Shown: positions 20,896 through 48,716 of the stretch, piece by piece
Layout of the letters: each line of letters begins with the position of its first letter
How positions within the stretch are numbered: position 1 is the first letter of the stretch
NCBI GenBank assembly: GCA_022787565.1
Contig: JALFVN010000077.1
Location: 1-64,000 of the forward strand
Source of the DNA: Clostridiales bacterium
Lineage (GTDB): Bacteria > Bacillota > Clostridia > Oscillospirales > Oscillospiraceae
DNA length: 64,000 bases
Direction of reading: 5' to 3'
Notes under the pieces: generated by a model
Databases searched by the model: none
Told to the model about the DNA's origin: nothing
The model's input: only the letters and a program-made list of their open reading frames with translations
Translations under genes and position numbers: made by a program

Positions 20896-20923
20896 TTGAC
20901 AAAACGAGGAAAATGCATATAAT
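20896..20923 (+). promoter_or_regulatory. Likely promoter of the type VII secretion operon
   Basis: Consensus TTGACA (20896-20901) and TATAAT (20918-20923) with a 16-base spacer. The first gene starts at 21400, which implies a leader of about 470 bases. A second TTGACA near 21213 lacks a good -10. Confidence 0.65.
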
Positions 20924-20929
20924 AAAACC

Positions 20930-21399
20930 GAAGGATTGTAATGGGATAATTATGCGGCCGGTTTGGCAGAAAAACATGGGGAAAGTTTATTCTGCTGTTG
21001 TTATATAGGTGTGCAGTGACCGGCGCCGGGCTTCTGACTGAGCACGCAAAAGAGGATTTTTCAACAAACGGACAAGCCCCAATTCAATTCGGCACTGGAT
21101 TCGCCGGTTTCCCGGAAGGATAAGCGGTCGGAAAGCCGGAGCAGCGCAGGCAGGAAGAGGGGAATTTGGTCATGTGCTTGTCCGCGCAGAAGAGAAAAGA
21201 AAAAAGGGAATTGACAGAAATGACGGTTTGGGCCAACATTTTACATACATACAAGCAGCTGACTGCTGCCTGTGGTGTTTCCAAAAGCGCAAAAATAAAA
21301 ACAATACATTCAACAGGAAAAGACTCGCAGCTGGCCCTTTGCTGACCAGCTGAGGGTCTTTTGCTGCTTTTTTCATATTTTTTACGGGGAGAAAAGAAG
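20930..21399 (+). promoter_or_regulatory. Long untranslated leader of the secretion operon with attenuator-like hairpin
   Basis: No credible gene lies in this 470-base stretch. Its last feature is a 16-17 bp stem (AAAAGACTCGCAGCTGG with CCAGCTGAGGGTCTTTT; one mismatch, one wobble) at 21318-21362, followed by GCTGCTTTTTT and then the GGGGAGAAAAG ribosome-binding site. The stem would stop most polymerases before the operon unless regulated. Several GC-rich stems lie around 21015-21140. No known riboswitch class was identified. Confidence 0.6.
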
Positions 21400-22671
21400 A
21401 TGAAGATCAAGTCGGCAATCAAAAACGGGAAAAATGTTGTAAATCTGAAGCTCGACGCAGAGTATGCGGTCAATGCAAGAGAGTTCGATCTGCTGTCCAC
21501 AAAGGGCGTGCGCGGCCTGATGAAAGTGGTTTCCTTCAAACGCAGGCAGTTTGAGTATAACGGCCCCCTTGGGATCCCTGTAGCGGAAAGACTGGCAATG
21601 CCGGTTTCTTCCAGGGAGTTTTTCTTCTTTGCTGCGCAGGTTGCGGAGCTGGTGAAACAGGTGCAGAAAAACGGATTTGCTATGTGCAACCTGATTCTGG
21701 ACCCCGGCTTTGTCTACGTCAACGGAGCAACGAAACAGCTGCAGTTTTTGTATGTGCCTATCGTGGCCAACACCTTTTATGTGGATGTGCGCCAGTTCAT
21801 CGGGGCCATGCTTGCACAGACCCATTTTGATACAAGAGACGATTCCGTGACGGTTGCCCAGTTTGATAATTTCCTCGGGGAGCTTTCGTATTTTGACCCG
21901 GAGAAGGTCCTTGCGTATATCGCGAAAGCCGACCCGGCGGTAATGGATCAGCTCAAGAGAGCAAGCTACGGGAACAGCGGCTTTCTGACGGACGACAGAA
22001 GAGAACAGTATCAGCACTACAATCAGCGCACGCCGCAGCAGAACGGCTATGAGATGCAGAATGGCCAGGCCCGGCGCAACGAGGTATCCCATCAGACCCT
22101 GTACACACCCCAGCACGGCAGCACGGGGGAGGCAGACAGCCGCGGTCAGGGAGGTTCCGGAAACAACCAGACCAATGGCAACGACTACTATGACGCGACA
22201 GGGCTGCTGAAAGAAGATTACGTACAGACGGGTCTGCTCAATGAGGAATTCGGTACGTCCCTGCTGGATTCAACGGAATTTACCGGCCAAGGCGGCGGGC
22301 AGACTGACGAATATGAAACAACGTTTTTGAACGAGTCTGATACATACTCCCGCAACGGGAGAAGACCGGCAGTATCTTACCCCAAGCTCAAAAGAGCGTC
22401 CACCGGTGAGACTGTGGAGATCAATAAACCGGTATTCAGAATCGGCAAGGAGAGGAGCTATGTTGACTATTTCATTGCCGACAACAGCGCCATAAGCCGC
22501 AGCCATGCCGACATCGTATGCAGAAACGGCAGATATTATATCGTAGACAGAAATTCCAAAAACCGTACCTTTGTAAACGAAGAGCCGATACCGGCGGGTG
22601 TGGAGATCGAAATCAACAGCAGCACAAGGCTGAGACTGGCAAACGAAGATTTTTCGTTCATTGCGGGATAA
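21400..22671 (+). CDS. DUF6382-FHA regulatory protein of the secretion locus
   Basis: 423 residues from the ATG at 21400. The N-terminal ~180 residues are a DUF6382-like domain (SFKRRQFEYNGPLGIP, then LILDPGFVYVNGATKQLQF); the pattern recalls the pseudokinase-like fold of EssB/YukC, an inference. A Gln/Gly-rich linker (about 200-330) holds TGLL (Thr267), TGLL (Thr277), TSLL (Thr286) and ETTFL (306-310). The C-terminal FHA domain (about 335-420) has SRSHADI and NSKNRTFVN, with GK in place of the usual GR. FHA domains bind phosphothreonine, preferring a specific residue at +3, so the linker could be a self-ligand phosphorylated by the kinase two genes downstream. First gene of the operon. Confidence 0.85.
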   Translation: MKIKSAIKNGKNVVNLKLDAEYAVNAREFDLLSTKGVRGLMKVVSFKRRQFEYNGPLGIPVAERLAMPVSSREFFFFAAQVAELVKQVQKNGFAMCNLILDPGFVYVNGATKQLQFLYVPIVANTFYVDVRQFIGAMLAQTHFDTRDDSVTVAQFDNFLGELSYFDPEKVLAYIAKADPAVMDQLKRASYGNSGFLTDDRREQYQHYNQRTPQQNGYEMQNGQARRNEVSHQTLYTPQHGSTGEADSRGQGGSGNNQTNGNDYYDATGLLKEDYVQTGLLNEEFGTSLLDSTEFTGQGGGQTDEYETTFLNESDTYSRNGRRPAVSYPKLKRASTGETVEINKPVFRIGKERSYVDYFIADNSAISRSHADIVCRNGRYYIVDRNSKNRTFVNEEPIPAGVEIEINSSTRLRLANEDFSFIAG

Positions 22672-22685
22672 AGGAGCTGGGATAA

Positions 22686-23447
22686 ATGCGTTTTACGGCA
22701 ACAGCGGACACAGACGTGGGAATCGTCAAAGCGACCAATCAGGACAGTGTCCTGATCAAGCATGCAGCTGCTCCTGAGGGCGAGGTCCTGATGGCGATCA
22801 TGTGCGACGGTATGGGCGGTTTGTCAAAGGGCGAGCTGGCCAGCGCCCATGTGATCCGGGCGTTCAACAAATGGTTTGAAGACGAATTGCCCGGCCTTGC
22901 GTACCGGGTTCCGCTTCAGCAGATCGGGGAAGAATGGGAGAACCTCCTTTCCCGGCTGAACCGGGAGATCATGGCATATCTGAGCGACCCGAATGAGAGC
23001 ATGGGTACCACATTTACAGGGATGCTGTTTCTGGGAAATGAACACATCATCATGCATGTAGGCGACTCCAGAGCCTATTATATCGGCCCCTCCCTGGATC
23101 TGCTGACAAAAGACCAGACCTTTGTCGCCCGGGAGGTGGAGCGGGGCAATATGACCCCCGAACAGGCGCGGATTGACCGGCGGCGCAGTATCCTTCTGCA
23201 ATGTGTGGGCGCATCCAAGAATATGAAGCCGGATATTTTATACGGAATGACCCGCAGGGGCGCGTACATGCTCTGCTCCGATGGCTTCCGTCATGAGATC
23301 AGCCCGGCAGAGATATATGACTCTCTCAACCCGATCAACCTGCTTAATAAGGAAGCCATGCACAGCAACGTGAAGTATTTGATCGACCTCAACAAGAAAC
23401 GAAGAGAGAGGGATAATATTTCTGTTATCCTGATTAAAACGGAATGA
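22686..23447 (+). CDS. PP2C-family Ser/Thr protein phosphatase
   Basis: Metal-dependent phosphatase (PPM/PP2C, Stp/PrpC-like), 253 residues, cytosolic. All signature motifs are present: ATNQDS (16-21), D41-GMGG, MGTTFTG (106-112), GDSRAY (127-132), SDG (198-200) and the C-terminal RDN (242-244). It should reverse phosphorylation by the adjacent kinase. Located 14 bases after the FHA gene and 11 before the kinase gene, an order typical of kinase/phosphatase pairs. Confidence 0.95.
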   Translation: MRFTATADTDVGIVKATNQDSVLIKHAAAPEGEVLMAIMCDGMGGLSKGELASAHVIRAFNKWFEDELPGLAYRVPLQQIGEEWENLLSRLNREIMAYLSDPNESMGTTFTGMLFLGNEHIIMHVGDSRAYYIGPSLDLLTKDQTFVAREVERGNMTPEQARIDRRRSILLQCVGASKNMKPDILYGMTRRGAYMLCSDGFRHEISPAEIYDSLNPINLLNKEAMHSNVKYLIDLNKKRRERDNISVILIKTE

Positions 23448-23458
23448 GGTGACGGATC

Positions 23459-25153
23459 GTGATCAGAATAGGCGATACCTTTAACGGACGCTATGAAATA
23501 CTGAAAGAAATAGGCCACGGCGGCATGTCCACGGTGTTCCTCGCCATGGACAAAAACATGAACAAGCAGTGGGCGGTCAAGGAGATCAGACGTTCTGGCC
23601 GGGATGCCAACGACGAGATGTACAGCCACAGCCTGCAGGCTGAGGCGAACATGATGAAGGCGCTGGACCATGGCGCGCTGCCCCATATTCAGGACATCAT
23701 TGATCAGGGCGAGACCTTCTGCGTCATCATGGACTACATCGAAGGCGAGTCGCTGGACAAGATCATCAATGAATACGGCGCCCAGCCGGAACAGCAGGTT
23801 CTGGAGTGGTCCATGCAGATCTGCGACGTGCTGTCCTATCTGCACTCCCAGCGTCCCCCCATCATCTACCGCGACATGAAGCCCGGCAACGTGATGCTCA
23901 AGCCGGACGGCAACATCAAGATCATCGACTTTGGCATCGCCCGCGAATATAAACAGGATATGGCCGATACTACCGTGCTCGGCACCCGGGGCTATGCACC
24001 TCCCGAGCAGTACAACGGCAGGACAGACCCCCGGTCCGACATCTACGCGCTGGGCATGACCATGCACCACATGCTCACCGGGCTGGACCCCCGGGCAAAG
24101 GATTATGAATACCATCCGGTGCGCTACTGGAATCCGGAAATATCGGATGGCATTGAGGCGATCATCGAAAGGTGCGTGCAGCCCGCAGCGGAAAACCGGT
24201 ATCAATCCTGCGCCGACCTGATGTATGACCTGCAGCATCCCGAGCTGGTCACAAAGGGACATAAACGCAGGCAGCGCCGCAGACTGGCAGCATTTATTTC
24301 CTGTCTGGCGCTCAGCGTGGTCTTTGCGGTGACGGGCTTTCTATGCAGCAACCAGGCAACGCGCATCAACAACAACCAGTACGACAAGCTGATCAACAGC
24401 AATATTGAAGAGAACATTCTTGACGGCATTAAAATCTACCCCGACCGGGTGGACGGGGTGGAAAAGCTGGTGGAATATTACGGTGAATCGGCCAGCTTCG
24501 GCGCGGAGGAGAACAGCCGTCTCAACAGCGTGTACTCGGCCAAAACCATTGACAACATGCTGGAGGACAGGGCCAACACAACGGCAGATATTGCCGAGCT
24601 GAACTACCGCATCGGCGCGCTGTACTTCAGCTATTACGATCCCGGCACCGGAACGCTGAACATCTTCCGTGACCGTGTGAACAAGGCTTTCCAGTTTTTT
24701 AAGGCCAACGCAACGGATTCCCGGCTTGAAGGCCTTGACTACGAACACAAGCAGGTGTCCGATTGCTTCTACCAGGTGTGCCTGTTCAACAAGGAGTTCA
24801 TTTTTGAAAGCGCCAGCGTCGCGGAGGCGTCCAAGTCCGACTACGATGAGCTGATCGAGACCATGGATCAATCCGTGGACGCCATCAGAAACGCCGATGC
24901 GTATACAAGACTTTCCCTTTATAACGCAGTGTTCACCCTGCTGAACGACCAGCGCCCGACCATGAGCCAGCTGGGCGTCGACAAAGAATCCGTGCTCCAG
25001 CTGATGGACAAGATCTATAACGAGGCCGTGAGCGTACAGCCCCATAAGGACGGCGCCATCTCTCTGCGCAACGAGATCATAGACAACTATGAAAGCTACC
25101 GGGCGAACATCGAGAACTGGGATATGATAGAAAGCGGGGGTGATCGGAAATGA
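23459..25153 (+). CDS. Membrane Ser/Thr protein kinase with extracytoplasmic domain
   Basis: A Hanks-type kinase of 564 residues starting at GTG 23459 (GAGGTG seven bases upstream). The kinase domain (12-265) looks catalytically complete: G-loop IGHGGMSTV (18-26), AVK with Lys41, Glu62, YRDMKPGN (137-144; catalytic Asp139), DFG (157-159), and GTRGYAPPEQ in the P+1 loop. A basic stretch (268-275) precedes one membrane segment (276-295), and a 270-residue helical ectodomain follows without PASTA repeats. This layout, kinase fold-TM-ectodomain, is that of EssB/YukC, the pseudokinase core subunit of type VIIb systems, which is otherwise missing here. It may both phosphorylate FHA partners and form part of the machine. 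Confidence 0.93.
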   Translation: MIRIGDTFNGRYEILKEIGHGGMSTVFLAMDKNMNKQWAVKEIRRSGRDANDEMYSHSLQAEANMMKALDHGALPHIQDIIDQGETFCVIMDYIEGESLDKIINEYGAQPEQQVLEWSMQICDVLSYLHSQRPPIIYRDMKPGNVMLKPDGNIKIIDFGIAREYKQDMADTTVLGTRGYAPPEQYNGRTDPRSDIYALGMTMHHMLTGLDPRAKDYEYHPVRYWNPEISDGIEAIIERCVQPAAENRYQSCADLMYDLQHPELVTKGHKRRQRRRLAAFISCLALSVVFAVTGFLCSNQATRINNNQYDKLINSNIEENILDGIKIYPDRVDGVEKLVEYYGESASFGAEENSRLNSVYSAKTIDNMLEDRANTTADIAELNYRIGALYFSYYDPGTGTLNIFRDRVNKAFQFFKANATDSRLEGLDYEHKQVSDCFYQVCLFNKEFIFESASVAEASKSDYDELIETMDQSVDAIRNADAYTRLSLYNAVFTLLNDQRPTMSQLGVDKESVLQLMDKIYNEAVSVQPHKDGAISLRNEIIDNYESYRANIENWDMIESGGDRK

Positions 25154-25848
25154 CAGCGGGAACTTATACTCTGTTATCTTACATCGCCTATGGCGCCGCG
25201 GGCCTGATGGTCGCGCTTGCGGTTCTGTTCTTCTTCCTGTTCAAAATCCCGGAGGTCATAGGCGATCTTTCCGGACGCACGGCCAGAAAGAACATCGCAA
25301 AGATCCGTTCTGCCAATGAGCGCAGCGGAGACAAGTCCTTCACCCCGGGCCGGGTGAACGAAGACCGCGGAAAGCTGACAAAGTCCATGCGGCTTGACGA
25401 AACCGGTGCCAAGGGAACGGTAGACCTGAAGTCAAGTCAGAATACCACACGTCTTGCGGCGGAGGGCGCCGCGACCACCGACCTGCTCAACGACCAGGGC
25501 GGATTTATCCGCGAAGAGACGGATACCCTGCCCGGTGCAGATGAAACAACGCCCCTGACCCAAGTTGGCGCGGAGGAGACCGCCCCGCTGAGAGAAGCGG
25601 AGGAGACCGCCCCGCTGAGAGAAGCGGAGGAGACCGCCCCGCTGAGAGAGGCGGAGGAGACCGCCCCGCTGAGAGAGGCGGAGGAGACCGCCCCGCTGAG
25701 AGAGCCGGAGGAGACCACAAGGCTGAACGAGCCTGCCCCGGGTGAGACGGAGCTGCTCTCCGGCCCCGGGAAAACGCCGCTCCAGGAAAAGGGCTGGGTA
25801 CTTCTTGAAAGTGTGGTGTTGATACACACTGAGGAGGTGATCCGTTGA
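25150..25848 (+). CDS. Single-pass membrane protein with tandem EETAPLRE repeats
   Basis: 232 residues; the start overlaps the kinase stop (ATGA). One N-terminal membrane segment (about 12-33) leaves a cytosolic acidic tail. The tail carries NTTRL, ATTDLL and ETTPL, then five exact EETAPLRE repeats (142-181), then EETTRLNE and ETELLS. Every Thr in these units has Leu at +2 or +3, a ligand type accepted by FHA domains when phosphorylated. No enzyme domain is visible. I infer a phospho-scaffold that recruits the FHA proteins to the kinase at the membrane. The repeat number is likely to vary between strains. Confidence 0.8.
   Translation: MTAGTYTLLSYIAYGAAGLMVALAVLFFFLFKIPEVIGDLSGRTARKNIAKIRSANERSGDKSFTPGRVNEDRGKLTKSMRLDETGAKGTVDLKSSQNTTRLAAEGAATTDLLNDQGGFIREETDTLPGADETTPLTQVGAEETAPLREAEETAPLREAEETAPLREAEETAPLREAEETAPLREPEETTRLNEPAPGETELLSGPGKTPLQEKGWVLLESVVLIHTEEVIR
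25573..25692 (+). repeat. Five tandem 24-bp coding repeats
   Basis: Unit GAGGAGACCGCCCCGCTGAG plus AGAA/AGAGGCG-type ending, nearly identical five times (the last two units differ by synonymous GAA/GAG changes). It encodes EETAPLRE and is in frame, so gain or loss of units would lengthen or shorten the protein without frameshift. Confidence 0.9.
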
Positions 25849-26327
25849 ATCCTGTGCGTAAGCTGCGCGACAGTTTTCAAAAATGTGTTATCAGTTTCAC
25901 TCTTTTTGCACTGTCCTTCGCATTCATGCCGCTGCCCTACTGCTTTGAAGGCGCGGCGCAGAGAGCAAGCTTTATCATCAACGGCCTGCTGTTCTGGGCG
26001 ACACTCATCGCCGGATGCTTCTTTCTTATGAGAGCGTCGGGATATGCCAAAGCGGTGTACAGAGCTGATCCGGACACCGCATACATCCGGAGTCTTCCGC
26101 CCGGGATCATCCGGTTTTTTACCAACCGGACGGCAGCGTTCTTTGACGTTTTGCTTCTTGCGTCGGCCGCAGGTACGGCAGTGCTCCTGCTGAAGGGAAA
26201 CAGCGGCGCAGAGGTATTCGCGGTTATTTCCATTGCTGTTTTTTCATTGATCATGCACAGCCTGTTCAATGGGAGAATATATAATTTGACAAAAAAAGGA
26301 ACATATAAGGAGAGAAAAACAAAATGA
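25845..26327 (+). CDS. Four-pass membrane protein of the secretion locus
   Basis: 160 residues, unrecognised family. Start is a TTG at 25845 preceded by GAGGAGGTGA and overlapping the previous stop. Hydrophobic segments lie at about 14-32, 42-62, 92-113 and 121-143. The central loop (ADPDTAYIRSLPPGIIRFFT) is short. Overlapping start and stop codons with both neighbours show it belongs to the operon. It could fill the place of a small membrane subunit such as EssA, but no similarity supports that. Confidence 0.75.
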   Translation: MNPVRKLRDSFQKCVISFTLFALSFAFMPLPYCFEGAAQRASFIINGLLFWATLIAGCFFLMRASGYAKAVYRADPDTAYIRSLPPGIIRFFTNRTAAFFDVLLLASAAGTAVLLLKGNSGAEVFAVISIAVFSLIMHSLFNGRIYNLTKKGTYKERKTK

Positions 26328-29300
26328 GCAGGAAAAGCAAAGAACTTGTCAAGCGTTTGCTCGCTGTTGCTTTAACGCTGGTGCTGGTACTGGGCATGCT
26401 GCCGCTCACCTCCGTCAGCGCCTATGCTGAGGGGGAGACGCTGGAGACCCTTGAGGAATCCCCCACACCTGAGGTAACCCCCCCCTCTGTGGTATCCCCC
26501 TCCCCTGAGGTAACCCCCCCCCCTGAGAGCCCTTCACCCAGCCCGGACTTGAAAGAGCTGGAAGTGACTCTGGATACTGTTGGCAATTTCACCTATGACG
26601 GTGAAAGCCACGACCTGATCAAAGAACTGAAGGTAAGCCCGAAGGTTGATTATACAGTTGAGTATAAGCTCACCTATACCGACACCGACAATCGCGAGTC
26701 TGCTCCTGTGGAGTTTAAAAATGCCGAGGATGTAAAGGCTACCGACGCCGGCGAATACAAAATCACCGCAACCGTCACGGCAGAGGGTTTTGCCGTTACT
26801 GAGGTACAAAAGACCGTCACAGTCGAAAAAGCGGGTTGGGCGATCACCTTTACCGATGATGCGGATAAAGTAATAGAAGCAGGCAGCACAATAGAAGGCA
26901 CGGTTTCCGATGGCAGCTGTGTTAAGACGGTTTATCTGAAAGAGAAGTATGAAAATATCCAGTTTACTCTTTCCGAAGACGAAGCAACTGCTGAAGTAGC
27001 TGCGCCGGTTTATTCCAGTGAAAATGGCGAACTCGTATTAACTTTCGCTGTGGCTGGTAGCTATTCTCTGAAGGCAAGCCTGGATGCAGACAACAACCAC
27101 AACAAAACTGAGGCGACTCTGTCATTTGCCATCAGTGCCGATTCAACAGTATCATCTGCAATATCAGCCAATGATGTGACAGCAGTACTGAATATTAAAG
27201 AGGAAACATTTAAAATTTCAGTCCCGTTTGAGCTGATCAACGGCGCAAGTGGCAAAGTCTGGGCAAGTATAAACGACAAAGAAATAGCCAAGCTTTTTAC
27301 AGTTTCTCCGAATGAAAAAAACAAGGTTAATTCATCTTCTGGTAATATAGAACTCAAAGCAAACGCAAAGGATCTGGCCGATGCGATGAGTGATGGTGAA
27401 CTCAGCTTTGATCTCACAATAATAAAAGATGAAAAAAAATCAGGCCTTTGGGGCAAAAAAATACTCTCTCCTAAGGCCAGCATGGCAGTGAAAATTACAG
27501 TCAATTTCGCCGACATTGAGATTTCCGATGGCGATCTCGCTATTGCGGGCGGAATTTACGAGAACGGCTGGTATCGTGCTGACGCAGAAGGCAAAACACC
27601 TTCGGTGACGATCATCAATGAAAGCCTTGGGGGATATACGCTTTCGGCTTCTGCAGGCGGCGACTATGCTGAATCCTGTGAACTTCCCGAAGGCATGGAC
27701 CCCGTGGTATATGTATGTAATTCAGCCGGCGATGTTGCCAGAATAGCCCTGGACGCCAAGGCCGACTACAATGCGCCAGTTACGATCATTGAAGAAGTTC
27801 CCGGTTTGAAGTCGACATGGCAGCAAATCTTGAAAAACATCACGTTTGGTGCGGCGGAACCCAAAGATGAATATAAAGTCAAATTATCAGCAAGTGACAA
27901 GAACGCAGTAGCAAGTGTGCATGTTGTTGTTAAAACTATTTCTTTAGCTCAAATCCAGGAAGATATAAAAGCAGCTGAACCTGTTAAAGAAAGCTATGTG
28001 GATGAAGAGGCTTACAAGGCCGCACACGATGCATGGGAAGCAGAGCACGGGGAAGATGATCCTGAACCCCAGCCGACTGACTATATTGATGAAAGTGCGT
28101 ACGAAGAGGCCCACGACGATTGGATGAACGGGAAGGTTAATATTGATTTTACCTTTGCCGATGAAGACAAGAGGGAGTACACCATTGGGAAAGGGCTTAC
28201 TCTTAATGAAGACGGAACCTATACGACTGAAGATCTCAGAGTAGAGGCAAACACTGACCAGATCTGCCAGATCGACTTCTGGGCCGTTGACGAGGCAGGA
28301 AACGTAGAGCGCGTTCGTCATACAGGAAACTACGACGAAGTAGCAGGCAAAGTATATGATTTTCTCCTGATCGATAACAATGCGCCGGAAATCACGCTTT
28401 TCTTCAATGGCGAAGAACTCGATGGGAATACGTTTTACTTCAACAAAGATGTAACGATAAGCGCAGAGGTAGAAGAAGAGTATTATGACGTGATCGATAA
28501 GGATGGCTTGCTGACTGTATTGATCAATGAAAAATCCAATGCAGATGAAGACAGAGACCAGAAAGTGGAATGTGAAGCTTTAACTGTTGACGAAAACAGT
28601 GTCGAAACATACACAATCAAAGCCACTTGCACTGACCGCTCCGGCAACTCAAAAACAATAGAGAAAACGCTTATCATTGACAAAGCTGCCCCCGCCCCCA
28701 CCGCTGCCTTAGCGGAGGATTACAACGGTTATTTGGATGAACCCGACGAATTGGATGACCCCGACACAAATCGGCGGTATTTCAATACCGAAATTGATTT
28801 TGTAATAGACGCAGGCGACGACAATCCCGGCAAAACAGTTGAGATTACTACCGACGATGCAGAAAAAGCCGATACTGTCGAGCTCGACAAAGGAAAGGGC
28901 GCCTACACACTCGACACAGAAGGCGAGCACAGCTTTACTCTGGCTCACACCGATTTGGCCGGCAATACCGGAAACGGGGAGTCTGAGCACATTTACGTCA
29001 TTGATAAAACAAATCCCACTGTGAACGTCAATCTCAGAGCCCCGGCGAACATGGAAGGCGCTACCCGCTACTACAACGGCCCGATAAGCGGCACCATCCA
29101 GATCGTTGAGAAGAACTTCGCTGAAAAACTGATCAGTGTCGCAGTAAACGACATAGGGCGCAAAGCCGACTTCACGAAGGGCAGCGAAGACACATATAAC
29201 GGGTCTGTCTACATCACCGGAGACGGCAATTACAAGCTCTCCGTCAACGGCAAGGACAAGGCCGGAAATTCCATGACCGGGTATGCAAGCGACAACCTGG

Positions 29301-30409
29301 TTGTCGACACCAAGATCGAAGCGCCCGTGATCAGCGGCGTGACCAGCGGCAAGGCCTACACGGACAAGAACATCACCGTCACCGTGACGGGTGAAGATAC
29401 GAACCTTGAAGAGATCAGCGTCAAAATCACCCGCGTGACCAAGGACACCAGCGAAACCGTCTTTACCACCAGCGGCAAGGACCGTACCGTCAGCTTCTCT
29501 ATCCCCGATGACCAGAGCGCAGACGGCATCTACACCGTTGAGGCAAGCATCCGCGACAAGGCCACCAACAAGGCCAGCGCAGTGCCTGTAACCTTTACCG
29601 TCAACCGCTACGGCTCTGTCTACGAATTCGTCTCGGGTATTGACGAGGTGAACGGCAAGCATGTTCAGGCCGTGGAGAAGGACCTGGTCATCAGAGAGTA
29701 CAGCGCCACCAAGCTCAAGACTCCTCTCGACAGCAACGTCCAGATCACCATTAACGGCAAGCCCGTCAGCGCGGCGGTCGTGAACGCGGAGGAGAAGCAC
29801 GAGAACGGCGGATGGTATGAATACACCTACACCGTCGCTGCTTCCAGCTTCGCAGAGGACGGCTATTACAAGCTGGAGGTCAGCTCCACCGACAGCGAGA
29901 ACGGCAAGGTATCCGGCACGGCGAAGTATGCCGACATGGGACTGGCCTTCTTCAAGGATGGCACCAAGCCCCAGCTGGAAAGCATCCTGGGTATGGAGAA
30001 GCCGACCTACAACGAAAATGAGCATGGTATCGACTTCAACGTATACGATGCCATCGGCCTGGCCTCTGTCAAGGTTTATGTTGACGGAAAGGAAGTTCTC
30101 ACCCAGACCGAGTTTGAAGATGCCAACACCTTCAACGGCAGCCTTCTGCTCAATGAAATGAGCAGCAAGCAGCATGTCCGCTTCGTGGTGGAAGACCTGG
30201 CAGGCAACGTAACGGATACAGACGACGAGATCGAGGCATTCGCTCCCGCCTACGAGTTTGTGCCCGATATCACCGTATCCACCAACTTCTTCGTCCGCTG
30301 GTATGCACAGCCCGGTCTGTTCTGGGGCAGCATCGGCGGCGGAGCGGCACTCATCGCCCTGATCGTCTTCCTCATCAGCAGAAAGAAGAAGACTGCCAAG
30401 GCTGAGTAA
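26324..30409 (+). CDS. Large surface protein with Ig-like repeats and C-terminal membrane anchor
   Basis: 1361 residues. A signal peptide (about 1-35, ending SAYA) leads to a Pro-rich stretch (PTPEVTPPSVVSPSPEVTPP), many beta-sandwich Ig-like domains (for example around 860-1120, with 'DKAGNS', 'DRSGNS', 'DLAGNT' loops typical of bacterial Ig-like modules), and a final membrane segment (about 1331-1351) with a positively charged RKKK tail. There is no LPxTG. An internal duplicate motif YVDEEAYKAAHDAW / YIDESAYEEAHDDW lies near 558 and 586. Residues up to about 900 come from visibly AT-richer DNA than the last third. The gene overlaps its upstream neighbour by four bases. In position and build it could replace EsaA/YueB, the surface-exposed part of type VIIb systems; this is inference. 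Confidence 0.85.
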   Translation: MSRKSKELVKRLLAVALTLVLVLGMLPLTSVSAYAEGETLETLEESPTPEVTPPSVVSPSPEVTPPPESPSPSPDLKELEVTLDTVGNFTYDGESHDLIKELKVSPKVDYTVEYKLTYTDTDNRESAPVEFKNAEDVKATDAGEYKITATVTAEGFAVTEVQKTVTVEKAGWAITFTDDADKVIEAGSTIEGTVSDGSCVKTVYLKEKYENIQFTLSEDEATAEVAAPVYSSENGELVLTFAVAGSYSLKASLDADNNHNKTEATLSFAISADSTVSSAISANDVTAVLNIKEETFKISVPFELINGASGKVWASINDKEIAKLFTVSPNEKNKVNSSSGNIELKANAKDLADAMSDGELSFDLTIIKDEKKSGLWGKKILSPKASMAVKITVNFADIEISDGDLAIAGGIYENGWYRADAEGKTPSVTIINESLGGYTLSASAGGDYAESCELPEGMDPVVYVCNSAGDVARIALDAKADYNAPVTIIEEVPGLKSTWQQILKNITFGAAEPKDEYKVKLSASDKNAVASVHVVVKTISLAQIQEDIKAAEPVKESYVDEEAYKAAHDAWEAEHGEDDPEPQPTDYIDESAYEEAHDDWMNGKVNIDFTFADEDKREYTIGKGLTLNEDGTYTTEDLRVEANTDQICQIDFWAVDEAGNVERVRHTGNYDEVAGKVYDFLLIDNNAPEITLFFNGEELDGNTFYFNKDVTISAEVEEEYYDVIDKDGLLTVLINEKSNADEDRDQKVECEALTVDENSVETYTIKATCTDRSGNSKTIEKTLIIDKAAPAPTAALAEDYNGYLDEPDELDDPDTNRRYFNTEIDFVIDAGDDNPGKTVEITTDDAEKADTVELDKGKGAYTLDTEGEHSFTLAHTDLAGNTGNGESEHIYVIDKTNPTVNVNLRAPANMEGATRYYNGPISGTIQIVEKNFAEKLISVAVNDIGRKADFTKGSEDTYNGSVYITGDGNYKLSVNGKDKAGNSMTGYASDNLVVDTKIEAPVISGVTSGKAYTDKNITVTVTGEDTNLEEISVKITRVTKDTSETVFTTSGKDRTVSFSIPDDQSADGIYTVEASIRDKATNKASAVPVTFTVNRYGSVYEFVSGIDEVNGKHVQAVEKDLVIREYSATKLKTPLDSNVQITINGKPVSAAVVNAEEKHENGGWYEYTYTVAASSFAEDGYYKLEVSSTDSENGKVSGTAKYADMGLAFFKDGTKPQLESILGMEKPTYNENEHGIDFNVYDAIGLASVKVYVDGKEVLTQTEFEDANTFNGSLLLNEMSSKQHVRFVVEDLAGNVTDTDDEIEAFAPAYEFVPDITVSTNFFVRWYAQPGLFWGSIGGGAALIALIVFLISRKKKTAKAE
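26478..26523 (+). repeat. C8 and C10 homopolymer tracts inside the surface-protein gene
   Basis: Eight Cs at 26478-26485 and ten at 26514-26523, within the codons for PEVTPP and PEVTPPP. Loss or gain of one C at either tract brings a stop codon within about 12 codons. Long C-tracts of this kind are known slippage hot spots. Confidence 0.9.
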
Positions 30410-31489: not shown

Positions 31490-31503
31490 CAGGAGGAAAC
31501 AGA

Positions 31504-32556: not shown

Positions 32557-32568
32557 CAGGAGAAACAT

Positions 32569-37357: not shown

Positions 37358-37367
37358 TCAACAGTAT

Positions 37368-37390: not shown

Positions 37391-37418
37391 ATAAAAAAAC
37401 AATTTGGAGGAAAAAGAA

Positions 37419-37679
37419 ATGGCAATTAGCGTATCTCCTGATCTGCTGGACGAGAGAGCTCAGCAGTTCCGCACTGAAGCGGAGAACTTCAACGAGGTTG
37501 TGGGCAGAATGGAAAGCCTGAAGAACACCCTGGAGTGGCAGGGCAATGCAGCGACCAAGTTTGATTCCGTCTTTACCGAACTGAAGCCCGGCTTCCAGAA
37601 GGTAAACGAGGTCATCAACGAGCTCGCCACCGCACTCAACACGGCCGCAAAGAACTTCAGAGAGGCCGACCAGGCATGA
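37419..37679 (+). CDS. WXG100 family protein (EsxA-like)
   Basis: 86 residues from the ATG at 37419 (GGAGGA eight bases upstream). A helical hairpin with W40-QG at the turn (LEWQGNAATKF), starting AISVSPDLLDERAQQFRTEA. This is the small secreted component that also activates EssC, normally the most abundant product of the locus. The canonical C-terminal Y-x3-[DE] export signal is not obvious (end NFREADQA). The gene is bracketed by two hairpins. Confidence 0.93.
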   Translation: MAISVSPDLLDERAQQFRTEAENFNEVVGRMESLKNTLEWQGNAATKFDSVFTELKPGFQKVNEVINELATALNTAAKNFREADQA

Positions 37680-39405: not shown

Positions 39406-39828
39406 ATGTCGGATTATGCTGAATATGACAGCCTGGTCAGCCAGAAGAGCCAGGCCGAGGGACAGGCAAGAGCTTGTGAGAAAAGGGTCGAAGATTACGA
39501 CAACAAGATTGAACGGCTGAAAAGAGCGGCCCATCAGTTGCCGGGCATGAAAAGCAGCTTTAAAAGCATTCGCAAAGCGGAAAAAGCACTGGCGGACACG
39601 GGCGATGACTGGATGGGTGAAACAAAAAACAAGTTTGCCCAGAAGATCGATACGCTTGAAACACAGAACGATAGATATTATAAAAACACCCTTGACTATG
39701 TGCACGATGAGCTCAACAACGAAATCACCCGGCTGCAAAATCTGCGCGCCGAAGAATGGGGGGTTTTGGGAAGACTCTATGGCGTGATCAATGATCTTGG
39801 CACAAAAATAGCGAATTTCTTCAACTGA
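39406..39828 (+). CDS. WXG-like helical protein (DUF5082/YwqH-like)
   Basis: 140 residues. A long N-terminal coiled coil (SQKSQAEGQARACEKRVED) and a W69-MG turn (DDWMGETKNKF) followed by another helix give a WXG-like fold. It resembles DUF5082/YwqH proteins found just upstream of LXG toxins, where such small partners bind the toxin's N-terminus for export. GGAGGG lies seven bases before the ATG. Confidence 0.75.
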   Translation: MSDYAEYDSLVSQKSQAEGQARACEKRVEDYDNKIERLKRAAHQLPGMKSSFKSIRKAEKALADTGDDWMGETKNKFAQKIDTLETQNDRYYKNTLDYVHDELNNEITRLQNLRAEEWGVLGRLYGVINDLGTKIANFFN

Positions 39829-39855
39829 AATCTGAAGAAGCGACGGTGATGATCT

Positions 39856-40116
39856 ATGGCAGAAATTAAAGTATTTGAGCCGGTAAGAGGCGAAATAAAG
39901 GCAATGAAATCGGCAGGCTTAAGCCTGATAGACGTGAGCCAGGTGATGTCGGGCGATGCTCCGAATATGCTCTGTGCGGAGAAATATGCGTCACAGCAGG
40001 AAAAAATCTGTACACTGATAGCCTTGTATCAGCAGCTTGTGAAAAAAGACACGAGAGAGTTCAGCAAAATTGTTGAGAACTTCTTTGCTGTCGACGAGAG
40101 TATGAGTGGAGGCTGA
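39856..40116 (+). CDS. Small helical partner of the LXG toxin
   Basis: 86 residues, mostly helical (EKYASQQEKICTLIALYQQL). No definite family; in position and size it matches the Lap-type targeting proteins encoded immediately before LXG toxins. Nine bases separate it from the toxin gene, so co-translation is likely. No signal peptide. Confidence 0.7.
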   Translation: MAEIKVFEPVRGEIKAMKSAGLSLIDVSQVMSGDAPNMLCAEKYASQQEKICTLIALYQQLVKKDTREFSKIVENFFAVDESMSGG

Positions 40117-40125: not shown

Positions 40126-42090
40126 ATGAGTTATGTGGTTGACTACGGCGCGCTCGATTCCCTCGACAGCAGTATTTTTTCGCAGTGCTCCCAGTGGCAG
40201 GGCCGGCTCAGCGACATGGAATCGGCCGTGTCGGTCCTGATGGGCACAGCAAATTTATCCGGCAATTCAGCGAATAATATTAAAAACTATCTCAAAAGCG
40301 TACACGGCACTGTGATCAGCTTGCTGGGAGAGCTGATTTATCTCCATTCCTGCAATTTCAAGGTGTACAAGAGCGACTATCAGGCCGGGGTCGATACGGA
40401 CCTTCACGCGGTCATCCGCTCAGAGAAGCTGACAGAAATTCAGGAGGATCTGTGGACCTACAGGAATCAGGCTGCCAGTGTGGACGATCAGCTTGCCTAT
40501 GTGCTGAGGGACGTGCGGGATATTTTCAGCATTACCTACAGCGGTATCTACAGCGCAGATAACGCCAACCGTATCGCGGAGAATTACGTCAGGGAGCTTG
40601 ACCAGCAGATCCAGCAGCTGGAGGCAGAACATTCCGGCCGGGACTTTGAGGCTACTGAGGCACTGATCACCTCTCTGACGACCTTTCTGAATGAGCAGCT
40701 GAACCGCCCGGCGGGAATGCTGACCGGCTTTGATATCATGCAGCTGGCGGCCTCCGGCAGCTTTGCAAGCCTGTATGAGGCCCATAACCTGGCCTATGAT
40801 CAGATCACAAGCCGGCAGGGCGCCTTTGAGATCGCAATGGAGAACGACGCTCTGCGCAACGAGGCGCTCCTGAAGGAGTATGAAGAACGGCAGAAAAAAG
40901 CGACGGCCGTCAAATGGATCGTTACCGGGGTATGTGTAATTGGCTCAATTGTGGCAATTGCGGCAACGGGGGGCGCGGCGACACCGCTTGTTGTGGGCTC
41001 AGTATCCGCGGTGAGCGGAGCAGTCATGGCCGGAGCCAATAATCTTGCTGATCAGTATGTACAGCACGGCAACCTGATTGAAAATGCGGATAAGATCGAC
41101 TGGGGTTCCTTTGGCAAGGAGACTGTGCTTGCGGGCGTTGCAGGATTTGCTACCGGAGCAATAGGCGCAAGTGTTGGCGGAGTGATCACAAGTAAACTGA
41201 GCAGTACCGCTATAGGAAATACCCTTCTTCATTCCGGCTCAAACTTCGTGAGAATCGGAACTGCCGCAGCCATTGGTTCCGTCTCAGAAATGGGCTCCGG
41301 TGTAGTGACGCGCGGTGTTGGCACATTCATTACAACGGAAGGAGACCTGGGCAAGGCATTGGATGATGCAATGGATATAAAAAATATTGCGCTTGATGCG
41401 GCCCTTGGCGGTGCAGGCGGTGCGATTAATGAGTACACAACAACCAAGGAAGCGCAGAAGGCGGCTGACGACTTTGCCTCATCTTATAACCAGAAACATA
41501 ATCCGCTGAAAGACGGAGAAGACTATGGCCTTGAAAACCTGAAACAAACAGCAAACGGCGGCGTGGACTTTTCGGATTCTGATTACATACTCCGAACTGA
41601 GGCAGGAGAGCCCATTCAGGTAAAAATCAAGGCCACAGGAGACAGGTCAAAAGACTATAAGCTCGCCGAACAAATTCTGAAAGATGACTATGGAATTGAT
41701 ATAGATTTCAAGTCAATGAGAACCGGCAGTGATAAGACACATGTGTGGCATCATCTGGACGATTATAATGTTGCAACAAATGAAACAACATTGCAATTTA
41801 TAGACATTGACGCACACAAGGCGATCAAAACGCATGCGGGTTCCGCAAAACAGTATCACATTGCAAATGGAACCGGCTACGGCAAGGACAGCTTTGATGT
41901 AAATTATGGACTTGATCTTACGGATGAAATGTCCAAAGTAAAAGACGGAGTGATGGATAATCTTGATAATATAGCCAATACCCCGTCGATGAGCTCAGGG
42001 AACGCCTTTAATTTTAGATTGGATTCCCTGAATCTGAATGGATTGAATGACCATTTCAGCAGTATAGCGAATTTCAGCGCTGCCGGATAG
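40126..42090 (+). CDS. LXG-type polymorphic toxin with WHH (HNH/EndoVII) nuclease end
   Basis: 654 residues. The N-terminal ~220 residues are LXG-like (LSGNSANNIKNYLKSVHGTV and a long coiled coil), the type VII export region. A Gly/Ala-rich hydrophobic centre (about 265-450) is typical of polymorphic toxins. The C-terminal region around 480-590 has a HVWHH motif (Trp541-His542-His543) with His564 and His570 in DIDAHKAIKTHAG, the pattern of WHH nucleases in the HNH/EndoVII superfamily. About 60 residues follow the nuclease. The next gene is a SUKH-type protein, the expected immunity partner. I infer a DNase used against competing bacteria. Confidence 0.87.
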   Translation: MSYVVDYGALDSLDSSIFSQCSQWQGRLSDMESAVSVLMGTANLSGNSANNIKNYLKSVHGTVISLLGELIYLHSCNFKVYKSDYQAGVDTDLHAVIRSEKLTEIQEDLWTYRNQAASVDDQLAYVLRDVRDIFSITYSGIYSADNANRIAENYVRELDQQIQQLEAEHSGRDFEATEALITSLTTFLNEQLNRPAGMLTGFDIMQLAASGSFASLYEAHNLAYDQITSRQGAFEIAMENDALRNEALLKEYEERQKKATAVKWIVTGVCVIGSIVAIAATGGAATPLVVGSVSAVSGAVMAGANNLADQYVQHGNLIENADKIDWGSFGKETVLAGVAGFATGAIGASVGGVITSKLSSTAIGNTLLHSGSNFVRIGTAAAIGSVSEMGSGVVTRGVGTFITTEGDLGKALDDAMDIKNIALDAALGGAGGAINEYTTTKEAQKAADDFASSYNQKHNPLKDGEDYGLENLKQTANGGVDFSDSDYILRTEAGEPIQVKIKATGDRSKDYKLAEQILKDDYGIDIDFKSMRTGSDKTHVWHHLDDYNVATNETTLQFIDIDAHKAIKTHAGSAKQYHIANGTGYGKDSFDVNYGLDLTDEMSKVKDGVMDNLDNIANTPSMSSGNAFNFRLDSLNLNGLNDHFSSIANFSAAG

Positions 42091-42102: not shown

Positions 42103-42528
42103 GTGTTTAACTTTATTGCCAGAGATTCAAATCAAAACAATGTCACACTGGAATATATCAGAAATTTTGAAGAAATAAGAGGCATTTCTTTTCCAGATGT
42201 TCTTGTTGACTTCTATATGAATCACAATAAAGCTGTACTGGAGGATGTTTCTTTTTCTGTTCACAATTTGGAGTTTACTGTTGAGTTTATCATTCCTCTA
42301 CAGCATGGAAATGTGTGTGTGGAGAAAATTCTATCGTTTAACGAAAATAATGAATATATTTCAAAAACCCTTATTCCTTTAGCTGAGGATACAGACGGAG
42401 AGGACTTCTATTGGGACTCGGCAAGCGGAAAAGTATATTACATATCCATGGAAAACGTTGAGAATCCTGTCCCAATCTGCGACAGTGTTGAGCAATTTTT
42501 TGAAATATTAAATAAATCATGTGAATAA
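42103..42528 (+). CDS. SMI1/KNR4 (SUKH) family immunity protein
   Basis: 141 residues, GTG start (ATAGGTG context with GGAGGGGAAATAG upstream). The order FEEIRGISFPDVLVDFYMNH ... LIPLAEDTDGEDFYWDS ... PVPICDSVEQFFEIL is that of SUKH-superfamily immunity proteins, which neutralise nuclease toxins in the cytoplasm. It starts 12 bases after the WHH toxin and is AT-rich compared with the secretion genes, which fits exchange as a toxin-immunity cassette. Confidence 0.88.
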   Translation: MFNFIARDSNQNNVTLEYIRNFEEIRGISFPDVLVDFYMNHNKAVLEDVSFSVHNLEFTVEFIIPLQHGNVCVEKILSFNENNEYISKTLIPLAEDTDGEDFYWDSASGKVYYISMENVENPVPICDSVEQFFEILNKSCE

Positions 42529-46606: not shown

Positions 46607-47989
46607 ATGAGTAAGGATTACTTCCGGGATAAACGGTTGACAGACGACAGTGTGAATGAGGCAACGCTGTTTTTTGAAGGCTCCGGCAGACTTGTCAGGC
46701 TCGACAAAAAAATGATGATCATCGGCAGAGATGAAAGCTGCGATATCACCCTCAATGCGAGCACCATCAGCCGTAACCATGCAAGAATATTTACGGACGG
46801 CGCCGACTGGTACCTGGAGGATCTCGGCTCGGTAAACGGAATGACGGTCAACGGCAAGCCGGTCAACCCCTATGAGACGGTCAGGCTTTTCAACAACTGC
46901 CACATCGTTTTTGCGGATAATCTGACTGTATGTTTCCGCAATGAGCGCAGCAGTATGCGTGATGATGGGGAGACCACTTTCCTGAACCAGAACATCCCGC
47001 AGCGCGGTCCGAAGGAGTGGGAGAACCCATACTATAGCCCGAGGCCGGCGCCCCAGCGCGAAATGGGAACGCCGCCCCAGCAGCCCCAGCAGCCCCGGCA
47101 GCCCCAGCAGCCCCAGCCGCCCCAGCAGCCGCAGTACGGCGCTTATGTGCCATCTGCCGGGCCTTTGCCCGCTCAACCGGCGGTTAAGAATAAACCGAAA
47201 ACCAAGCTGTGGCTTGTCGCGGTCATTGTTCTGGCTGTGGTGCTTGCCGGCATGGCGGCGGCATGGGCGCTGCTGTCCGGCATCGATGATGTCCATATCA
47301 ACGCCGGCGTATACAGCATGGATTATCACCGCTTCCTGGGCAAGACAAAGTGGACCGTGACCGATAATCTGACCGACGCGAAGACCGAGTCTGTATTTCT
47401 GAGCGAAGACGGTAAACATGTGGAGCACGCCAGCTTTGAAGGGGAAGACGGAAGCATAAAAGTGGTTTTCTTCCGGGATGATCTGCCGGAATATGCCACG
47501 ATCGCAGGCCCTGACGGCACGGTTACGGAAATTGCCTACTACCCCGAAGACAGGTTATTCACCGTGACCCTTGGCGAAGACATGTATACCTACGATTATG
47601 ACGGAAATCTTGTCGAAACCCGACAGGAAGAGACAGCAGACGAGAGCATCTTTTCCTTTGGAACGGAAACCGTGTCCTTCGGAGGAGAAGAGGTATACCC
47701 GGTCCTTCTGTCCTCGCCCCTTGCCGTGAATGCGCTCTCCCTTTCCGCAAGGGCGACCACGGAAATCTCCGGCTTCTATGTGCTTGTCCTCCGTGAGGGT
47801 GAGGAAGAGTGGGAACCGGCCCTGCTTAAATCCGTGGATGACGGATACACGATAGAGGCTTCCATCCAGTTCCCCGAAGAGCTGTCCATTGTAGGAATTG
47901 CCATCATACCCGGATGCTACGAGGATCTGCGGATCAATGATATGGAAGTATGTGCCGCCGTCGAAGGCGAAACGGGGACTGGCGCCTAA
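46607..47989 (+). CDS. FHA-TM-ectodomain protein, copy 2
   Basis: 460 residues, paralogous to 37809-39380. FHA domain (about 20-112) with G40-RD, S55-RNH and N77-G78; ETTFL at 122-126; WENPYYSP; a Gln/Pro-rich linker (about 150-180); a membrane segment (about 203-225); and an ectodomain of about 235 residues. The start DYFRDKRLTDDSVNEATLFF matches copy 1 (DYYSAKRLTDSVYDSAVLYL). The conserved spacing of FHA and ETT motifs in both copies argues that ETT is functional. GGAGC precedes the ATG. Confidence 0.86.
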   Translation: MSKDYFRDKRLTDDSVNEATLFFEGSGRLVRLDKKMMIIGRDESCDITLNASTISRNHARIFTDGADWYLEDLGSVNGMTVNGKPVNPYETVRLFNNCHIVFADNLTVCFRNERSSMRDDGETTFLNQNIPQRGPKEWENPYYSPRPAPQREMGTPPQQPQQPRQPQQPQPPQQPQYGAYVPSAGPLPAQPAVKNKPKTKLWLVAVIVLAVVLAGMAAAWALLSGIDDVHINAGVYSMDYHRFLGKTKWTVTDNLTDAKTESVFLSEDGKHVEHASFEGEDGSIKVVFFRDDLPEYATIAGPDGTVTEIAYYPEDRLFTVTLGEDMYTYDYDGNLVETRQEETADESIFSFGTETVSFGGEEVYPVLLSSPLAVNALSLSARATTEISGFYVLVLREGEEEWEPALLKSVDDGYTIEASIQFPEELSIVGIAIIPGCYEDLRINDMEVCAAVEGETGTGA

Positions 47990-48042
47990 TGCCGGGCCAA
48001 TAACGGCTATTCACGCAAAGCCCGTACAAAGGAGGAAAAGAA

Positions 48043-48660
48043 ATGGAACAGACAGTCTGCCGGAAACGCGCTAAGGTAGCAGGCGTATTTACAATTTTTT
48101 TGGCGCTCAACGAACTGCTCAATTTTTTGCTGTATTTTGTCCGGGTCGTACAGTACAGCGGTATTCCTGCGGAAAATCTTATCCGCAACCTGGTGATGCT
48201 TTCTGCGCTTACGGTTGTTGTAATTCAGGCAATGAGAAACAAGAGCGGCGTGGTACTTTTCGTGGCCGTAACAGTATATGCGGCGGCGTTCCAGTGGTTT
48301 ACCCTCACGGGAATAATCAGGGGCACGACAAAGCCCAATGTGTATACATATATCATGCTGCTGAGTTTAGTGAGTTTGATCGTGGTCGCGGCCTTCAGCG
48401 CTTTTAAATGTGACCGGTTGGTAAGATATACCTGGTATCTGCCCGTCCTGATAACGCTGGTCTTTGCCTTGGGATACTACGCCTATAACATAGAATACTA
48501 TGCAGACCTCTTCTCCATCGGCCTGAGCTTTGAGGATTACATATACAGAGCATCCGCTGTAAACAATTTGTTTCTAAGACCGGTGTTCGTCCTGTATCTC
48601 ATGCTCTGGTTGAAATCCATGGCGGACGAGCGTTTGCGCAGAGAAACATATCGCTGGTAA
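48043..48660 (+). CDS. Integral membrane protein, end of the secretion operon
   Basis: 205 residues, unrecognised. About six hydrophobic segments (residues 12-34, 46-63, 68-88, 96-116, 127-147, 170-190). AAAGGAGG lies seven bases before the ATG. It is the last gene before a strong terminator. Nothing indicates a role beyond co-location. Confidence 0.75.
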   Translation: MEQTVCRKRAKVAGVFTIFLALNELLNFLLYFVRVVQYSGIPAENLIRNLVMLSALTVVVIQAMRNKSGVVLFVAVTVYAAAFQWFTLTGIIRGTTKPNVYTYIMLLSLVSLIVVAAFSAFKCDRLVRYTWYLPVLITLVFALGYYAYNIEYYADLFSIGLSFEDYIYRASAVNNLFLRPVFVLYLMLWLKSMADERLRRETYRW

Positions 48661-48680
48661 ATCCCCCCCGAAAAAGATAT

Positions 48681-48716
48681 ACCCGGAAGAAGACTGTTCC
48701 TTCTTCCGGGTTTCCT
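48681..48716. terminator. Terminator closing the secretion operon
   Basis: ACCCGGAAGAA and TTCTTCCGGGT (48681-48691, 48701-48711) with a 9-base loop, then TTCCT. Convergent with the activase gene, whose stop codon is just to the right. Confidence 0.8.

Follow-up and report, generated by a model that had tools for sequence, protein, structure and literature searches.

How does a type VII secretion system (T7SS) work when EsaA, EssA and EssB cannot be found in its genome, and when a Ser/Thr kinase, a phosphatase and FHA proteins are encoded beside its ATPase? This question is raised by a locus of a Clostridiales bacterium (Oscillospirales, Oscillospiraceae; GenBank assembly GCA_022787565.1, contig JALFVN010000077.1), of which we analysed the first 64,000 nucleotides, referred to here as the window. 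A first-pass annotation had read the locus as an atypical, phospho-regulated T7SS in which the kinase and a large Ig-like surface protein stand in for EssB and EsaA. The genes that it named (essC, esaB, WXG100, kinase, PP2C phosphatase, four FHA proteins, TadZ-like ATPase and Ig-like protein) are all present on the plus strand. Our results indicate that the locus joins two units, a secretion core of the T7SSf lineage (30584-37679) and a portable kinase/phosphatase/FHA/Ig module (21361-30409), and we see an even chance that the two work together as the phospho-switch proposed below.

Two units in one locus

We refer to the genes by letters (Table 1): unit 2, the module, is J1-F-D-H-K-I, in which D is the kinase, F the phosphatase, J1 a DUF6382-FHA protein, H a protein with one N-terminal transmembrane (TM) segment and I the Ig-like protein; unit 1, the secretion core, is J2-V-B-C-A, comprising a second DUF6382-FHA protein, a TadZ-like ATPase, a YukD/EsaB-like protein, EssC and a WXG100 protein. 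Window proteins were assigned by Pfam and NCBIfam profile searches with curated cut-offs, and TM segments by hydropathy. The intergenic gaps are 14, 11, -4, -4 and -4 base pairs (bp) within the module and -4, 12, 10 and 46 bp within the core; the widest break, the 174 bp that follow I, is therefore the boundary between the units.

In our sample of the order (394 genomes), 30 genomes had an EssC match at E <= 1e-100. Besides the window, four encode a near full-length EssC matching at 48-63%, the other long matches lying at 30-38%, and the EssC of G302 matches at 52% along 355 residues. Most of the J1-F-D-H-K-I-J2-V-B-C order is retained in four genomes from three other families, so that the arrangement is not due to chance; K was not found in G462, and in G445 neither H nor K was found and the Ig-sized protein of 1432 aa had no match to the window's I. 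The expectation that the kinase-phosphatase-FHA set adjoins essC in relatives too was thus borne out. Across 84,980 species, each represented by one genome, 442 stretches encoded EssC relatives; 80 of them, ranked by similarity to the window's EssC, were kept as relatives' loci, many from gut or rumen samples according to their titles. V was present in 66, YukD in 76 and J2-V-B-C consecutively in 55, losses at contig ends being counted as misses. Two of the loci (L095 and L110) are the same as those of G408 and G445 and were excluded from the final counts.

The module without this EssC

An H-alignment search found H in 18 of the 394 order genomes, four of them with a window-type EssC. The proposal that H is specific to T7SS was rejected, as the remaining 14 lack a window-type EssC: in G399 and G487 a divergent EssC is encoded on a different contig, and the other 12 gave no match to EssC at E <= 1e-100. 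In the window's own genome H was found at this locus only. Neighbourhoods were read in 10 of the 14 genomes. J1-F-D-H occurred in this order in nine, and in the tenth (G453) the contig starts inside D; after H, a K match was present in six and a long Ig-sized protein in nine (cut in G475, missing in G441), five of these being sequence matches to the window's I. The genes listed from seven before to eleven after H in these neighbourhoods included no match to the EssC, YukD or WXG100 models. J1-F-D-H-K-I is a separable module, found in the same order in relatives without this EssC.

In six of the ten neighbourhoods (G239, G365, G456 and G475, and, without K, G290 and G441) a Tad pilus operon stands upstream of the module, pilus genes taking the place of J2, YukD, EssC and WXG100; G441 also lacks I behind H. 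The T2SSF, Flp1, TadE and A24 peptidase genes of G239 and the T2SSF and Flp1 genes of G475 were verified with Pfam, one T2SSF match in each falling under the cut-off. The contigs of G453 and G326 start at the module or within it and that of G399 just before it, and no Tad genes were found in the neighbourhood of G479. The TadZ proteins of the four Tad operons whose start was read are matched by the V model at 2e-27 to 3e-29, and phmmer with the TadZ of a Tad operon retrieves V at 4.2e-8; on account of these matches we consider the TadZ of the operons homologous to V. TadA was present in 9 of the 14 H genomes without window-type EssC, on the contig of H in seven, vs none of the five window-type genomes.

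In a tree of 22 chosen kinases, rooted on a single outgroup, four Pseudobutyrivibrio T7SS-linked kinases join the Tad-linked ones (support 1.0) and stand apart from the kinase of the window. By this topology the T7SS-linked kinases do not form one clade, and the module would have changed partner at least once. Together, these data suggest that J1-F-D-H-K-I is a plug-in controller for cell-surface machines. Literature search listings gave no description of a Tad-kinase-FHA link beyond PMC11217815. Since the D, F, H and I block also occurs without this T7SS, often beside a Tad operon, the kinase and the Ig-like protein do not appear to be dedicated stand-ins for EssB and EsaA, and this part of the first-pass annotation is not supported.

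Threonine-specific repeats in H and J1

The H tails and J1 linkers carry repeats that we summarize as acidic-T-x-x-L (pattern: acidic-(0-2)-T-x-hydrophobic/Pro-L/I/V), counted against shuffled sequences. In 22 H tails, one of them (L150) added by hand, the motif occurred 80 times vs 6.75 after shuffling (maximum 18 of 500), and its Ser version once vs 4.1; without L150 the count was 76 vs 6.6 (21 tails). Replacing Thr by Asn, Ala, Gly, Gln or Lys gave counts within the shuffled range. The 12 J1 linkers contain 24 Thr motifs vs 1.3 (maximum 6) and three Ser motifs vs 1.4; those of the window's J1 are DATGLL, EFGTSLL and ETTFL. Because the repeats of the window's H form a near-identical tandem array (a 27-bp repeat at 25570-25716, 5.4 copies, 98% matches), distinct peptides were also counted, giving 65 vs 6.5 in 21 tails. 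Ten further H tails from genomes without window-type EssC, retrieved with an H model that had been built with the tails included, gave 26 vs 2.85 for Thr (maximum 9 of 1000) and 1 vs 2.46 for Ser, and nine J1 linkers from such genomes 13 vs 1.3. The acidic-T-x-x-L repeats are Thr-specific.

FHA domains are readers of phosphothreonine (pThr), often with a preference at position +3. The activation loop of D reads DTTVLGT, and 20 of the 22 kinases in the tree have a DTxxLGT loop, which resembles the ETTVL tails. As the repeats are Thr-specific and resemble the activation loop DTTVLG, they are likely pThr sites for FHA domains. Among the loci of the window EssC clade, which are related and in some cases cut, the H model hit 10 of the 13 with a DTxxLGT-loop kinase vs none of the 13 stretches read with a DFN-type kinase. 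The latter, which have DFN in place of DFG and no DTxxLGT loop, are those of G445, L084, L086, L087, L088, L091, L092, L097, L107, L123, L140, L156 and L163; in L107, H seems to survive as a split remnant in two pieces, one with a TM segment and the other with HTNESI at its end. Many H members end in a HT[DE]EVI-like peptide. In the locus of G408, a zinc-ribbon TM protein beside J1 and F (L064, 5036-5695) has three T-x-L-L motifs and is probably another acceptor; the window's zinc-ribbon DUF805 protein has none.

J1 is comparable to GarA and OdhI, in which an ETT-type acceptor N-terminal to the FHA domain takes part in a kinase-FHA circuit (PMC8546545), as ETTFL might in J1; the window differs in its several putative acceptors, its separate membrane scaffold H and the DUF6382 fusion.

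Absence of EssB and a candidate counterpart

Profile searches of the genome to which the window belongs (2.63 Mb, 77 contigs, completeness 99.14, contamination 4.04) gave no EsaA, EssA or EssB over the curated cut-offs: the best EssB match had E 0.39 and 9.8 bits (cut-off 27.4), and EsaA and EssA gave no match. Among 52 system-bearing genomes EssB exceeded the cut-off in one (G491), and two more had weaker matches at E <= 0.01. In G491 a further EssC adjoins EssB, and the same contig gives an EsaA-type match below threshold. EsaA passed in none of 25 system-bearing genomes, with sub-threshold matches at E <= 0.01 in 13 of the 25, the stronger of which we take to be YhgE/Pip-type proteins; EssA passed in none of 15, with sub-threshold matches at E <= 0.1 in 6 of the 15. 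EssB was not found in any of 196 genomes drawn from the class; it was found in 8 of 150 from the family of G491, and a search on plasmids gave four partial matches.

The kinase is not a convincing substitute. With its YRDMKPGN and DFG motifs and glycine loop, D looks like an active enzyme and not like the degraded pseudokinase of EssB, and the proposal that its ectodomain, beyond the single TM segment near residue 278, corresponds to that of EssB was rejected (hhalign score 14.7, probability 0.3). By profile, DUF6382 is the best match to the EssB pseudokinase. Against an EssB pseudokinase profile of nine domains, a DUF6382-FHA cluster came first (E 7.7e-6, probability 84 in hhalign) among 63 profiles, made up of 52 clusters and 11 named profiles, some of which overlap; J2 alone came second, a kinase cluster third and an H cluster fourth, a rank that TM residues in the EssB stretch may explain. 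A narrow profile of the D kinase matched DUF6382 at noise level (0.8%). Judged by profile comparison, the similarity of DUF6382 to the EssB pseudokinase exceeds that of decoys, and DUF6382 may itself adopt a pseudokinase fold.

The FHA region of EssC is relevant here. In T7SSb the YukC pseudokinase binds the FHA region of YukB, apparently without phosphorylation (PMC9600267), the FHA2 domain of Staphylococcus aureus recruits EssB (PMC9436818), and a cryo-electron microscopy core of YukC, YukB and YukD has been reported (Oka et al. 2025, as cited in PMC13037476). We scored the pThr-binding pattern with a regular expression; as it misses variants such as SRxKH, the divergent EssC set (4 of 16 matched) was not assessed by it. 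After a length filter, 76 distinct clade EssC sequences remained; the FHA region of 74 lacks the pattern, and the two matches look spurious. The relaxed pattern was found in 49 of 56 J2 (strict, 44) and 10 of 12 J1 FHA domains (strict, 11). Because DUF6382 matches EssB by profile, the EssC FHA region lacks the pThr pattern and J2 adjoins YukD and EssC, J2 and not D would be the likelier EssB counterpart, a conclusion that is suggestive and not proven. The window would then resemble the T7SSb core of YukC/EssB and YukB in having a pseudokinase-like protein, YukD and an EssC with a pThr-blind FHA region, and differ from it in lacking EssB, EsaA and EssA and in that its proposed pseudokinase-like domain is soluble and fused to FHA.

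The same data bear on whether the units are merely neighbours, the module controlling adhesion through the Ig protein with no effect on secretion. Such a separation would agree with the 174-bp gap, with the module's independent occurrence and with an EssC FHA region devoid of the pThr pattern; it fits poorly with the pThr pattern of J2, a core protein, in most members, with the adjacency of the units in three other families of the order and in Pseudobutyrivibrio (L128), and with the upstream kinase of the T7SSf-type genome G972. We consider it rather unlikely.

Placement of EssC and described systems

The general idea of a T7SS linked to kinases, phosphatases and FHA proteins is already published. 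Garrett, Higginson and Palmer (2024; PMC11217815) define T7SSc-j, several with kinases, phosphatases, FHA or DUF6382-FHA and Ig-like components, and propose phospho-regulation; the T7SSf that they describe has a TadZ-like ATPase and a phosphatase and no kinase, and the gene linkage between T7SS and Tad pili is left open. The literature search found DUF6382 mentioned in this paper only. The arrangement, whose novelty the first-pass annotation had left undecided, is thus largely covered by T7SSe, T7SSf and T7SSj, and an exact fit to either T7SSe or T7SSf was not obtained.

In a midpoint-rooted tree of 113 EssC sequences, the window EssC clade and the TsfC of G1031 fall together (joining-node support 0.889), apart from the TsjC of G1031 and from six EssC that adjoin EssB; that the 80 scanned EssC are monophyletic is in part built in, as they were ranked by similarity to the window. 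We take G1031 to be C. acetobutylicum (ATCC 824), and its two loci match published T7SSf and T7SSj contents. The window shares with T7SSf F, J, V, B, C and A, the J-V-B-C order and the EssC grouping; it differs in having D, H, K, I and a second J, and in J1 and J2 lacking any hydrophobic segment where the T7SSf J has two TM helices. The kinase, which T7SSf lacks as published (PMC11217815), is not peculiar to the window: G972, of the TsfC group, encodes a kinase without the DTT loop, a small H-like TM protein and an Ig-sized protein upstream of F-J-V-B-C, from which they are separated by five genes of small to middle size.

The locus might be a plain published T7SSe, with D, I, H and J all serving the T7SS as dedicated subunits; I would then cross the wall as EsaA does, and D would take the place of EssB. 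All of D, F, H, I, J, B, C and A are present, D as a kinase, F as PP2C, J as DUF6382-FHA, and H (a TM protein with a cytoplasmic-type tail) and I by architecture only, and Garrett et al. put TsdI forward as EsaA-like and draw a comparison between TscD and EssB in topology (PMC11217815). The window departs from T7SSe, compared by description only, in V, its two J proteins and a four-TM K. Further, one WXG100 exceeded the cut-off among the proteins scanned, not two, leaving no TseA2; the EssC FHA region lacks the pThr consensus said to be well conserved in TseC; EssC groups with TsfC; and the block also exists without this EssC, often beside a Tad operon. We therefore regard a plain T7SSe as unlikely. 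As far as the published descriptions could be compared, the window fits neither type fully and combines a T7SSf-type EssC with the kinase/H/Ig set of T7SSe. What stands of the first interpretation is an atypical T7SS lacking EsaA, EssA and EssB and equipped with a kinase-phosphatase-FHA set; the kinase as a substitute for EssB does not.

One plasmid-borne relative was found, an EssC in Agathobacter rectalis (52.6% over 78% of the query); the gene table, which is incomplete, lists neither DUF6382 nor TadZ next to it; a single-protein EssC scan of viral contigs gave three pattern matches and no relatives. In L122 and L124 (Clostridium sp. KNHs205 and Anaerocolumna) a short J2 (229-230 aa) precedes V-B-C after a run of small single-TM proteins that had no match to Tad queries.

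A possible phospho-switch

The two-unit reading can be put as a working scheme. The ectodomain of D, the Ig-like protein I, or both, would sense the envelope or a neighbour; D would autophosphorylate its DTTVLG loop and then phosphorylate the matching acidic-T-x-x-L sites on the membrane-tethered tail of H and the linker of J1. The FHA domains of J1 and J2 would dock on the phosphorylated sites, and F would reverse the phosphorylation. Through its EssB-pseudokinase-like DUF6382, J2 might bridge to EssC, meeting the pThr-blind FHA domains as YukC meets YukB, and EssC would then export the LXG nuclease.

Several observations weigh against this scheme. With regard to the module, 5 of the 14 H genomes without window-type EssC also lack this TadA, and the module may work with other partners or by itself; one single change of partner is enough to explain the kinase tree. 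The H-bearing genomes with neither window-type EssC nor this TadA are G479, G326, G399, G450 and G487. With regard to the motif, the Val variant is somewhat raised (H tails 10 vs 3.3, maximum 13; J1 linkers 4 vs 0.7, maximum 4), and the way in which the second H set was retrieved counts here as well. The 44 distinct kinase-model hits in clade loci comprise 15 with DTxxLGT, 13 of DFN type and 16 with neither; G445 keeps its J1 motifs although its kinase lacks the loop, and the H of L141, which also lacks the loop, has no motif.

With regard to the EssB link, a first J2 profile gave an hhalign probability of 9.5% against EssB. In the DUF6382 alignment A3, 32 of the 37 members match DUF6382 and 3 of the 37 are trypsin-type; a 71-sequence profile rebuilt from other rows scored 34-35 (probability 44-53%) against EssB, vs 13 for reversed alignments. 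A broad kinase cluster scored 32.7 (probability 15%) against this profile, vs 34.1 for EssB, almost as high, so the DUF6382 signal may be kinase-like in general, and DUF6382 of a more general kinase-like origin. The best hit of DUF6382 among PDB sequences is a Ser/Thr kinase, at a non-significant E of 0.88, and the YukC Pfam model hit one of the 37 alignment members at E 0.12. DUF6382-FHA proteins occur in the Tad-linked module too, and DUF6382 is accordingly not T7SS-specific. What the computation shows is the two-unit architecture, the enrichment of the motif with Thr, an EssC without the pThr pattern and the absence of EssB; the pseudokinase fold of DUF6382, every phosphorylation and docking step, secretion, and phospho-control of secretion itself are what we infer from predicted domains and motifs.

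A bolder version holds that the module is shared by T7SS and Tad pili in Clostridia, that pThr docking repeats echo the kinase loop, that DUF6382 is an EssB pseudokinase detached from the membrane which, as part of DUF6382-FHA adaptors, links the module to a pThr-blind EssC, and that secretion is a contact- or stress-gated phospho-switch; this we find possible and rather doubtful. Our estimates for the scheme and its bolder version go no higher because one partner change suffices, the DTT loop occurs in a minority of kinase hits and the kinase cluster scores close to EssB.

Gene content and surroundings of the locus

Table 1. Features of the locus; coordinates refer to the window
Feature	Position	Strand	Evidence and remarks
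J1, DUF6382 - linker with T-x-x-L motifs - FHA	21361..22671	+	FHA 1.4e-12; first gene of the signalling module
F, PP2C-type phosphatase	22686..23447	+	Pfam PP2C_2 30.4 bits, cut-off 24
D, Hanks Ser/Thr kinase with ectodomain	23459..25153	+	Pkinase 160.4 bits, 7.3e-47
H, N-terminal TM, tail with seven acidic-T-x-x-L motifs, C-terminal HTEEVI peptide	25150..25848	+	
K, four-TM protein	25845..26327	+	Position kept in several relatives; four TM segments where TseK has one
I, Ig-like surface protein	26324..30409	+	Pfam Big_13 1.6e-11; last module gene
J2, DUF6382-FHA	30584..31489	+	DUF6382 33.5 bits (cut-off 26.7), FHA 52.3 bits; first gene of the secretion core
V, TadZ-like ATPase	31486..32556	+	Pfam AAA_31 55.6 bits, 8.1e-15
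B, YukD/EsaB-like	32569..32823	+	Pfam YukD 34.5 bits (cut-off 27), 3.5e-8
C, EssC ATPase, N-terminal FHA-like region without pThr-binding pattern	32834..37357	+	TIGR03928 1137.9 bits, cut-off 778.4
A, WXG100 protein	37404..37679	+	Pfam WXG100 62.2 bits, 5.6e-17
FHA-TM-ectodomain protein 1	37809..39380	+	FHA 2.4e-19; TM 211; ETTVF in linker
Two small helical partners of substrate	39406..40116	+	YwqH-like 39406-39828 (3e-12); DUF5344-like 39856-40116
Candidate substrate, LXG domain and C-terminal WHH nuclease domain	40126..42090	+	LXG 7.5e-19, WHH 3.2e-6
SUKH (SMI1/KNR4) candidate immunity protein	42103..42528	+	Pfam 6.5e-12
FHA-TM-ectodomain protein 2	46607..47989	+	FHA 1.7e-20; TM 201; ETTFL in linker

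The DUF6382 match of J1 (25.7 bits) lies just below the Pfam cut-off of 26.7, and comparison with relatives' starts places the J1 start more likely near 21400. I has hydrophobic segments at 13 (N-terminal, signal-like) and 1333 (C-terminal TM). Besides K, a two-TM protein at 20379 was compared with the single-TM TseK. The DUF5344 match had 25 bits, under the cut-off of 27. The LXG-WHH nuclease and the SUKH gene look like a toxin pair of the usual interbacterial kind for a T7SS. Other clade loci did not yield the two FHA-TM-ectodomain proteins in the same form; a screen gave four matches, two of them the window's own and the others different in layout. The last gene of the locus ends at 48660.

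The genome has one essC at E <= 1e-50, and two congeners have none. The guanine-cytosine content is 0.48-0.53 across the locus (in 4-kb windows) vs 0.56-0.58 downstream, with mixed values upstream; the lower content and the congeners without essC suit acquisition of the locus as a unit. A search for insertion-site repeats gave just one 14-mer, inverted, common to the flanks at 7.8-21 kb and 47-54 kb. Upstream lie a serine resolvase (11203-11943), an Eco57I-type methylase followed by a ResIII-type helicase protein (12082-17479), which match type II/IIG restriction models, and, just before the cluster, a macro-domain protein followed by a weakly VWA-like protein (18221-20244).

Conclusions

In summary, our work describes a gut-type bacterium in which an unusual machine for toxin export is linked to a control set of kinase and phosphatase. 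What it adds to the published description is the separable module, the Thr-specific motif repeats and, at the level of inference, a profile link between DUF6382 and EssB together with the mechanism outlined above. The system is widespread, with 442 EssC relatives in 84,980 species. Garrett et al. left open the linkage between T7SS and Tad and reported for T7SSf a TadZ-like ATPase and a phosphatase without a kinase (PMC11217815); the shared module, the kinase in a T7SSf-type locus, the putative Thr acceptor repeats in H and a possible DUF6382-EssB link offer testable answers on these points and on the roles of the DUF6382 and H proteins.

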